This document shows, piece after piece, positions 2,579 to 3,387 of a DNA stretch of 50,007 nt. The stretch comes from an uncultured Eudoraea sp. (GTDB lineage: Bacteria; Bacteroidota; Bacteroidia; Flavobacteriales; Flavobacteriaceae). Where the stretch lies: the NCBI RefSeq assembly GCF_947260015.1, contig NZ_CAMYOM010000025.1, positions 1 through 50,007 on the forward strand, in the 5' to 3' direction. Under the pieces are notes generated by a model. That model was given only the letters and a program-made list of their open reading frames with translations. It made no database searches and was not told where the DNA came from. The position numbers and the translations under genes are program-made. Each line of letters begins with the position of its first letter. The first letter of the stretch is position 1.

Positions 2579-2590
2579 AAAAATATTCAG

Positions 2591-2666
2591 TCGGGGTGGC
2601 AGGATTCGAACCTGCGACCTCCTGCTCCCAAAGCAGGCGCGATAACCGGGCTACGCTACACCCCGA
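2591..2666 (-). tRNA. tRNA-Pro (anticodon TGG)
   Basis: A complete 76-nt cloverleaf on the minus strand. Acceptor TCGGGGT pairs with ACCCCGA, the D arm contains AGCGTAGCCCGGTTATCGC, the anticodon stem CCTGC/GCAGG encloses loop TTTGGGA (anticodon TGG), and the T arm has GGTTCGAATCC. CCA is not encoded. A TATGTTTG -7 box lies 39 bases upstream, but the expected -33 box is replaced by the tRNA-like copy at 2724-2818. The palindrome at 2547-2578 follows. Confidence 0.95.
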
Positions 2667-2687
2667 TGGTCATCTATAAATCGTTTT
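2660..2687 (-). repeat. 28-nt direct repeat, tRNA-Pro leader plus 5' acceptor strand (copy 1)
   Basis: On the minus strand this holds 21 nt of tRNA-Pro leader plus tRNA nucleotides 1-7. It is identical over 28 bases to 2812-2839, where the same bases encode the C-terminal tail of the GIY-YIG protein. Confidence 0.95.
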
Positions 2688-2704
2688 TCACTAAAGAGAA
2701 TATA

Positions 2705-2712
2705 CAAACATA
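2705..2712 (-). promoter_or_regulatory. -7 promoter box of tRNA-Pro
   Basis: TATGTTTG on the minus strand (consensus TAnnTTTG), 39 bases before the mature tRNA 5' end. The matching box of tRNA-Ser sits 40 bases before its tRNA. No TTG is found at the 17-23 spacing, because the upstream bases belong to the inserted tRNA-like copy. Confidence 0.5.
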
Positions 2713-2723
2713 ATTTTCTCTAG

Positions 2724-2818
2724 TTGGGGTGGTCACGCCTTGGCGTGACGACCTCCTGCTCCCAGCAGGACTTTATAACCGGGTGAGACCTGCCACGCTT
2801 TAGCGTGGTAGACCCCGA
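2724..2818 (-). pseudogene. tRNA-Pro-like copy A with palindromes in place of arms
   Basis: On the minus strand this starts TCGGGGT and ends ACCCCAA, like the acceptor of tRNA-Pro at 2591-2666. The D-arm region carries a palindrome at 2793-2808 (7-bp stem CCACGCT). The anticodon arm is a shortened CCTGCTGGGAGCAGG (2755-2769). The T arm is replaced by GTCACGCCTTGGCGTGAC (2732-2749). It cannot fold into a normal tRNA because the T loop TTCGAAT is gone. It overlaps the last codons of the GIY-YIG gene and lies directly upstream of the real tRNA-Pro. Confidence 0.8.
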
Positions 2819-3045
2819 TGGTCATCTATAAATCGTTTTGCTCCGCGTTTTTTAATACGCTTTTCCAGTTGAATAGCCTCTGATCTGTTGGCTACTGGTA
2901 TTTGCAAAACTAACTTCCAGGGGATACCTCCCTTGGTTGAAGGTACAAGTCCTTCATTGTGTCTTTTCAATCTTTTATTGATATCTGCAGTCTGACCTAC
3001 GTAATATCTTGAACGTTTCTCGCTATATAAAATATAAACGAACAT
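2800..3045 (-). CDS. Small GIY-YIG endonuclease-like protein with tRNA-derived tail
   Basis: An 81-residue single-domain GIY-YIG nuclease. The VYI (Y4) and YVG (Y15-G17) strands, NKRLKRHN (R25) and the metal-binding Glu E61 in QLEKRIKKR are all present, so the catalytic set looks complete. Cellular relatives (YhbQ/UPF0213 type) are of similar size. The last nine residues before LPR (70-78) are encoded by a 28-nt copy of the tRNA-Pro leader and acceptor strand. The stop codon comes from the D-arm palindrome of copy A. The gene lies between tRNA-Ser and tRNA-Pro on their strand, with no promoter box of its own visible. A mobile role is inference. DNA cleavage is the known family activity. Confidence 0.85.
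   Translation of the reverse strand: MFVYILYSEKRSRYYVGQTADINKRLKRHNEGLVPSTKGGIPWKLVLQIPVANRSEAIQLEKRIKKRGAKRFIDDHRGLPR
2812..2839 (-). repeat. 28-nt direct repeat (copy 2), inside the GIY-YIG gene end
   Basis: Identical to 2660-2687. In the minus frame it encodes GIY-YIG residues 70-78 (KRFIDDHRG), so a tRNA leader and acceptor strand are read as protein. Confidence 0.95.
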
Positions 3046-3058
3046 CTAAACTCTTTTT

Positions 3059-3178
3059 GGGTGGTCACGCCTTGGCGTGACGACCTTCCCGCTGCCAGCG
3101 GGACGCGATATTAACGCCTTGCGTTACAAGCCGGGCTAGACCTGCCACGCTCTAGCGTGGTACACCCTGCGTGGTGTA
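3059..3178 (-). pseudogene. tRNA-Pro-like copy B, carrying palindromic inserts
   Basis: A second degenerate tRNA-Pro-like unit at the other side of the GIY-YIG gene. It shares 28 bases with copy A (3059-3086 versus 2727-2754), including GTCACGCCTTGGCGTGAC at 3064-3081. It then has an altered anticodon-arm hairpin CCCGCT/AGCGGG (3088-3102). The tRNA blocks cgcgata, ccgggcta and tacaccc follow, interrupted by two palindromes: TAACGCCTTGCGTTA (about 3111-3125) and CCACGCTCTAGCGTGG (about 3145-3160). A TACACC/GGTGTA hairpin closes it at 3161-3178. Confidence 0.75.
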
Positions 3179-3231
3179 ATTCTCAAACTTTCAATTTCAA
3201 AATTGCAACTGTCGTACCATTGTGAACCTAT

Positions 3232-3286: not shown

Positions 3287-3291
3287 AAAAG

Positions 3292-3387
3292 CGGAGAGAC
3301 TGGGACTCGAACCCAGGCGACACTTGCGCGTCGACAGATTAGCAATCTGCTCCGTTACCACTCCGGCACCCACTCCGGCACCTCTCC
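3292..3387 (-). tRNA. tRNA-Ser (anticodon GCT) with a 12-bp tandem duplication
   Basis: On the minus strand acceptor GGAGAGG pairs with TCTCTCC, the anticodon stem encloses loop TTGCTAA (anticodon GCT), and a long variable arm CGACGCGCAAGTGTCG and a T arm with GGTTCGAGTCC are present. The block CCACTCCGGCAC (plus strand) is repeated in tandem at 3358-3369 and 3370-3381. This puts 12 extra nucleotides between acceptor and D arm. Without the repeat the gene would be 84 nt and normal. A second register could start at GGAGTGG, giving one mismatch in the acceptor. Function may be impaired or rescued by alternative RNase P cleavage. Confidence 0.85.
3358..3381. repeat. 12-bp perfect tandem duplication in tRNA-Ser
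   Basis: CCACTCCGGCAC occurs twice head to tail (3358-3369, 3370-3381), within the D arm and acceptor junction of the tRNA gene. Confidence 0.97.

Follow-up and report, generated by a model that had tools for sequence, protein, structure and literature searches.

What is a GIY-YIG nuclease gene doing between pieces of tRNA-Pro, with its last codons running into one of them? This arrangement lies at positions 2591-3178 of the window, by which we mean the whole 50,007-nucleotide stretch analysed here (positions 1 to 50,007 of contig NZ_CAMYOM010000025.1, assembly GCF_947260015.1, from an uncultured Eudoraea sp. of the Flavobacteriaceae). An earlier note on this DNA had taken the gene for part of a miniature tRNA-associated unit that inserted at the tRNA 5' side and borrowed the tRNA leader to finish its own reading frame. 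The underlying observation is confirmed; the interpretation is partly supported, being half right and in need of turning round. Judged from its sequence, the region is probably the decayed form of an array of two units, the unit being a miniature element of homing type, which would cut and restore tRNA genes.

On the minus strand the order is tRNA-Ser, defective tRNA-Pro copy B, GIY-YIG gene 1, defective tRNA-Pro copy A, a remnant of GIY-YIG gene 2 and an intact tRNA-Pro (Table 1). The two tRNA-Pro-like copies said to flank the gene are real. Neither is called as a tRNA by ARAGORN or, at E<=1, by Rfam; they have in common a second exact 28-mer (2727-2754 and 3059-3086), and the palindrome GTCACGCCTTGGCGTGAC occurs at two places in the whole genome, in copies A and B only. 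The repeat that first drew attention to the locus is exact over 28 nucleotides and no further. In 1000 Markov-1 resamples of 2586-3185, direct repeats reached at most 13 nucleotides (mean of the longest, 8.6), which rules out a chance origin. One copy holds six nucleotides of the tRNA, and the seven originally counted are reached only if the preceding base is included; the other copy does encode residues 70-78 of the 81-residue GIY-YIG protein. What had been taken simply for a tRNA-Pro leader belongs to a second GIY-YIG gene, of which it is the 3' end. The middle of this gene is gone and its two ends meet at a common AAAACG, and the supposed leader recurs inside the open reading frame (ORF) because it is itself a gene remnant. 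Relatives at tRNA-Pro(TGG) genes usually have their stop codon about 10-15 nucleotides inside the following intact tRNA, and residues 70-75 (KRFIDD) are ordinary conserved protein sequence. Together with the gene 2 remnant, these tails show the reverse of an ORF borrowing a tRNA leader. No complete Pro-type relative was found with this tail away from tRNA-Pro sequence, some loci being cut by contig ends.

The gene product is a GIY-YIG protein, as proposed, with a match to PF01541 (E 1.4e-13) above the profile cut-off. Y4, Y15, G17, R25, H29 and E61 are invariant in 25 of 25 aligned proteins, among ten invariant residues in all; the Tyr, Tyr/Gly, Arg, His and Glu residues we take to be those of the GIY-YIG active site. 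By its substitution pattern the gene is under purifying selection: the ratio of nonsynonymous to synonymous rates (dN/dS) is 0.06-0.23 against ten relatives, with an eleventh saturated, and two pairs among the relatives gave 0.14 and 0.35. The structure is predicted with a mean local confidence (pLDDT) of 97.0, and its nearest folds are UPF0213, SLX1 and I-TevI, none at E<=0.001. By sequence the closest solved structures are UPF0213 (1zg2, E 3.7e-13) and SLX1 (2.3e-6). Three of five proteins match the NCBIfam model of group I intron endonucleases over its first third or less, below the cut-off, and in PHROGs one of five proteins has homing-endonuclease matches, which are weak, while the window protein has none.

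The tRNA-Pro is present in eight of ten genomes of the genus, at nine places. One locus (L078) has on one strand tRNA-Ser, a defective tRNA-Pro, a complete GIY-YIG gene and an intact tRNA-Pro, with the last codons inside the tRNA; L082 and L085 are likewise filled, the upstream side of L085 being cut by a contig end. L084 is an empty site, in which 24 bp separate tRNA-Ser from tRNA-Pro. L077 has the L082 spacer without the defective copy and the gene, as though the site had collapsed by way of a 16-nucleotide repeat present in two copies. Remnant states are found in the window, L079 and L081, the L081 remnant being the same as that of the window and the L079 remnant nearly so, and L083 has the gene end only, at a contig end. 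The proteins of Eudoraea loci L038 and L039 are identical to those of L078 and L082, which makes Eudoraea the probable genus of all these loci. Whether tRNA-like copies might predate the nuclease gene, a possibility raised in the earlier note, receives a divided answer: the defective tRNA of L079, accompanied by only a gene remnant, points to gene loss, and other fragments, in the window genome, stand without any recognisable gene. The tRNA-Pro of L084 (genome G104) is 92% identical to that of the window, against 100% at the eight other places; the tRNA of this genome may have changed together with the element, in this one case. Extra tRNA-Pro 3' thirds with a hairpin T arm follow the intact tRNA at about 560-610 of L085 and after 3623 of L049, in tandem in the latter.

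Two layouts recur at related loci. In the first, a 5' tRNA fragment is followed by the GIY gene and an intact tRNA (Pro, Asp, Leu or Arg). The second is its mirror image, in which an intact tRNA with its terminator is followed by the GIY gene and a 3' tRNA fragment, often with a copy of the flank (Met, Asn, Val or Arg). As this mirror-image layout is common, the tRNA 5' side loses the special role first given to it. The fragments usually carry a palindrome; whether it lies in the D, anticodon or T arm depends on the tRNA. Among the upstream regions of 48 Pro(TGG) loci, chosen by leaving out 14 loci that were repeats or came from the same genome and four whose upstream DNA was too short, the T-loop is kept in none and a CACGC hairpin is present in 42. 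The direction of the fragments was followed by searching for the 13-nucleotide 5' ends and 15-nucleotide 3' ends of tRNAs within 350 bp of 187 tRNA genes in six genomes (genes with less than 100 bp of flank dropped, repeats collapsed, and one Met fragment counted for two genes). Stray 5' ends lie near nine of the 187 genes, only upstream and on the same strand; stray 3' ends lie near 14, only downstream and again on the same strand. Six control placements of the tRNA ends gave 0/187. The search missed the window's own tRNA-Pro because its copies are too degraded.

GIY genes stand in tandem at 22 loci, 19 of them tRNA-linked. At 16 of these 19, every copy matches its neighbours at 95-100% identity over 210 bp, with a spacing of 304-406 bp; lower values were obtained for L043 (84%), L104 (25%) and one L140 pair (30%), of which the L104 and L140 values may reflect a wrong register of the starts. 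A single genome present in two collections may account for some of the tandem loci (L028 and L053). Two genomes further have a common block at two tRNA-Pro loci, ending in each case at the tRNA 3' end: 455 alignment columns at 89% identity in G248, and 382 columns at 97% in G260. Beyond the blocks, the flanks of the paired loci gave no blastn similarity at E<=1e-3. Such blocks may also reflect gene conversion. These paired loci, the empty and several filled sites in the genus and the recurrence of the same kind of gene at many tRNA genes support the proposal of a miniature tRNA-associated unit beside an intact tRNA.

Close relatives (E<=1e-20) occur in 20 of 299 family genomes, several in tandem, and 40 loci came from named genomes, mostly Arenibacter, Eudoraea, Christiangramia, Aquimarina and other Flavobacteriaceae. 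Many of the latter end at contig ends (L046, L053, L060 and L070, for example), so arrays are probably under-counted in short-read assemblies. Among the matches listed for 60 family genomes, we looked at 89 distinct small-GIY loci, which are part of the open frames below 200 residues (90 fetched minus L092, which coincides with L002; the linked label of L141 was assigned by eye and the unlinked label of L159 by hand). Nineteen are tRNA-linked, at Pro, Asp, Arg, Val, Leu, Asn, Met and Ser genes, a proportion that describes a chosen part of the matches and is therefore not a frequency in genomes. A profile of 25 linked proteins matched 152 of 296 phylum genomes at E<=1e-12. Of the best 29 new loci, 24 come from outside the family. 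Each of the 29 is tRNA-linked, with the gene and the tRNA sequence on one strand, and the tRNA genes concerned are Pro, Ala, Asp, Val, Asn, Thr or Lys; with a query built from linked genes and the best-scoring loci taken, 29/29 describes the best relatives and not all 152 genomes. On a tree of 148 domains, the linked/unlinked label needs five changes, against a mean of 49.0 when shuffled, and twelve labels (eleven tRNA types plus 'none') need 18 changes where 11 is the minimum possible. L021 and L026 were labelled unlinked despite the tRNA-Pro(GGG) sequence after them. The pattern, from a short alignment, agrees with a single linked subfamily or a small number of them, with switches between tRNAs. 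A 48%-identical GIY gene also occurs in a Deltaproteobacteria record (L069), with no tRNA found within 3.6 kb.

Table 1. Features of the tRNA-Pro/GIY-YIG array, in the order of the minus strand, with the two copies of the 28-nucleotide repeat last.
Feature	Position	Strand	Basis
tRNA-Ser(GCT)	3291..3376	-	ARAGORN and Rfam; upstream neighbour of the array, likewise at many related loci
Defective tRNA-Pro copy B, first in transcription order	3056..3170 (about)	-	Partial tRNA-Pro match 45-73 (L007); repeats in common with copy A
Palindrome CCACGCTCTAGCGTGG, D-arm region of copy B	3145..3160	.	Read on the sequence
Palindrome TCCCGCTGCCAGCGGGA, anticodon-arm position of copy B	3087..3103	.	Read on the sequence
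Palindrome GTCACGCCTTGGCGTGAC, replacing the T arm of copy B	3064..3081	.	Sequence search
GIY-YIG gene 1, complete, 81 residues	2800..3045	-	ORF, Pfam, purifying selection, conserved residues, model pLDDT 97.0
Defective tRNA-Pro copy A; the 3' end of gene 1 runs into it	2724..2818 (about)	-	Sequence; hairpin instead of T-loop
Palindrome CCACGCTTTAGCGTGG, D-arm region of copy A	2793..2808	.	Read on the sequence
Palindrome GTCACGCCTTGGCGTGAC, replacing the T arm of copy A	2732..2749	.	Sequence search
GIY-YIG gene 2 remnant: first and last codons, middle deleted; acts as tRNA-Pro leader	2666..2711	-	Comparison with the complete L078 gene and the like remnants L079 and L081
Intact tRNA-Pro(TGG)	2590..2665	-	ARAGORN; Rfam 2591-2665, 69.2 bits
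28-nucleotide repeat, copy 1: gene 2 tail and tRNA 5' end	2660..2687	.	Exact match
28-nucleotide repeat, copy 2: gene 1 tail and 5' end of defective tRNA A	2812..2839	.	Exact match

Between the two tRNAs, the ORFs of at least 50 residues are the GIY-YIG gene and a 58-residue ORF overlapping tRNA-Ser. Elsewhere in the window, the plus strand at 2390-2413 carries a T-arm-like stretch, GGTTCGAATCC, of which only 13 nucleotides match tRNAs; it is possibly an old tRNA end.

How might such a locus arise? In the reading that we prefer, the unit would consist of a bare GIY-YIG nuclease gene and part of a tRNA gene. We infer that the protein cuts DNA, within a tRNA gene or next to it, and that the break is repaired by copying in the unit, the unit bringing a replacement for the tRNA half that it displaces. 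The outcome would be one intact tRNA, with the displaced half left on the far side of the nuclease gene. Palindromes replacing parts of its arms would make this half no longer tRNA-like or, perhaps, target-like. The restored tRNA would be open to renewed cutting, and tandem arrays would therefore build up; in the window, the second of the two nuclease genes has lost its middle. Known GIY-YIG homing enzymes have a DNA-binding region besides the catalytic domain (PMC3943268). Because the present protein, unlike these, is without a separate one, recognition of DNA shape is considered as an alternative, and would give the palindromes a role.

Several points weigh against such a homing-type element. 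The 81-residue protein has no DNA-binding region besides its catalytic domain by ORF, Pfam or structural model, and phage tblastn searches gave no relative of it at E<=1e-3. At least seven tRNA genes of the window genome have, by eye, a stray 5' fragment upstream without a recognisable GIY gene (Ser, Asn, Gly, Met, Arg, Pro(GGG) and Val; L178, L185, L189, L190, L195, L201 and L214), most with a palindrome. Fragments were found at none of 86 tRNA genes in G032, G040 and G014, which have no GIY gene near the sampled tRNAs (37 of 38, 38 of 45 and 11 of 46 tRNA genes, respectively); these three genomes were taken because they are single contigs. A third within-genome pair of loci gave a mixed picture, and L077 may be a collapsed site and not a never-filled one. 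The tree has 67 columns and few firm forks. Much of the history of the Pro-type relatives may be vertical, since they often have the same neighbouring tRNA-Ser.

Recombination acting by itself might also produce such loci: an ordinary repair-type host GIY-YIG gene would happen to stand beside tRNAs, slippage and unequal crossing-over between short repeats would make the tandem copies and the partial tRNAs, and the nuclease would be inactive in the process. The short junction repeats agree with this, such as the AAAACG at the gene 2 deletion, and so does the 16-nucleotide repeat by which an L082-like site could become like L077; stray fragments exist without a GIY gene, and the closest solved structures by sequence include UPF0213 and SLX1, not only I-TevI. 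Against recombination alone stand the grouping of the linked genes, found at many types of tRNA, into a single subfamily or a few, and the block that each of two genomes has at two dissimilar loci. The fragment load also follows the linked genes in the six genomes, a small and partly chosen sample: fragments stand at 20 of 101 tRNA genes in the window genome, G018 and G012, which have linked GIY genes and of which the last two were chosen for them. We judge this explanation unlikely.

The palindromes could instead be the mobile part, inserting into tRNA genes and causing the partial duplications, with the GIY gene as passenger or helper. Besides the palindromes that the fragments usually contain, TCCCGA...TCGGGA palindromes outnumber the reversed pattern by 11 to 1 in the window genome and by 30 to 1, 15 to 1, 5 to 0 and 2 to 1 in four others; five of the 11 are no more than 300 bp from a tRNA gene, and four of these five sit inside a 5' tRNA fragment. 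GIY-less units also stand in tandem (L218), and one of 109 bp does so in G012. Such dispersal over the genome is seen in REP/RAYT-type systems, which have a Y1 transposase gene alongside. The TCCCGA palindromes are dispersed in this way, whereas GTCACGCCTTGGCGTGAC is confined to its two places in the array. The palindromes moreover vary between loci, some fragments have none (Val, L178), and the linked protein subfamily is left unexplained, so that we find a palindrome-driven origin improbable. Unlinked GIY genes (L164, L148 and L159) are flanked by other palindromic repeats, for example TCATTCCTGC...GCAGGAATGA in L164, and there is a hint that palindromes accompany GIY genes more widely. Least probable of all is that the defective tRNAs are kept as functional tRNA-shaped RNAs, for instance as decoys against tRNA-cutting toxins or as hairpins restraining nuclease translation: the predicted folds of copies A and B are strong (-44.5 and -54.6 kcal/mol, without shuffle control), the T-arm hairpin ends about 20 nucleotides before the start codon and T4 homing nucleases are regulated by RNA hairpins near the start (PMC2988022), but A and B are not recognised as tRNA, the 3' layout puts the fragment behind the gene, and the replaced arm differs between tRNA types.

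If the homing-type reading is right, part of an essential gene is replaced by a 0.3-kb unit whose single protein domain is a bare nuclease, and such a unit would show the minimal size of an autonomous invader. It would account for the debris of tRNA fragments and palindromes, and for the assembly breaks, found near tRNA genes in these bacteria. It would also be a caution for annotation, since the ORF tails, tRNA leaders and pseudo-tRNAs at such loci would belong to a single object. The wider finding deserves attention, namely that tRNA genes are split and restored around a bare nuclease gene across much of the phylum Bacteroidota. A bolder view, which we put forward tentatively and would not yet bet on, is that these loci represent a phylum-wide class of the smallest autonomous gene-invading elements. 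A nuclease of about 80 residues, lacking a DNA-binding domain and guided by the shape of tRNA-gene and palindrome hairpins, would split tRNA genes from either end, rebuild them, amplify in tandem, and leave behind nuclease-free derivatives and move these in trans; the tRNA genes of these bacteria would then undergo constant cutting and rebuilding.

Kilobase islands with integrases are the main kind of mobile element known at tRNA genes. Prophages and genomic islands use tRNA genes as sites and restore them, bringing an integrase and kilobases of cargo and using mostly the 3' end; the element described here is one nuclease ORF and is found at both tRNA ends. An attachment site of a prophage or island within the unit is not favoured, because the interval between the two tRNAs, to which the search for a recombinase was confined, has no ORF of this kind. 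Small GIY-YIG proteins of the UPF0213/SLX1 type are the best solved relatives by sequence and, below significance, by fold. To our knowledge they are not tRNA-linked, and the linked and unlinked genes are well separated on the tree. A limited full-text literature search yielded no description of tRNA-linked GIY-YIG units in bacterial chromosomes, and a text search of a 2006 survey of the GIY-YIG family for tRNA led to three places, in no case with reference to such units (PMC1564403).

Two known systems come closer. In fungal mitochondria, endonuclease ORFs termed mORFs (Allomyces atp6; Glomus atp6, atp9, cox2 and nad3) bring a replacement gene end and leave the native end behind (PMC3630166). 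As there, the endonuclease ORF stands between the replacement and the displaced parts of a split gene in both layouts found here. The mORFs are longer elements in mitochondrial protein genes; the present units split tRNA genes at both ends, measure 0.3-0.4 kb and form tandem arrays, and their tRNA parts are too alike to tell which is of which origin. SegB of the T-even phages is a free-standing GIY-YIG homing endonuclease encoded beside tRNA genes, and in phage T6 nuclease-driven tandem amplification of a tRNA-Tyr/segB unit has been demonstrated, with short homology between the tRNA 5' end and the segB 3' end and a cut motif RAWTSGAAC (PMC13096335). In our own comparison, the reverse complement of this motif fits the tRNA T-loop. 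SegB is phage-borne, whereas here a bare 81-residue domain without a phage match sits in the chromosome among displaced tRNA halves and palindromes. The tandem unit of tRNA plus nuclease is common to both, and the array in the window would, if our reading is right, be the decayed form of a chromosomal counterpart to phage SegB.
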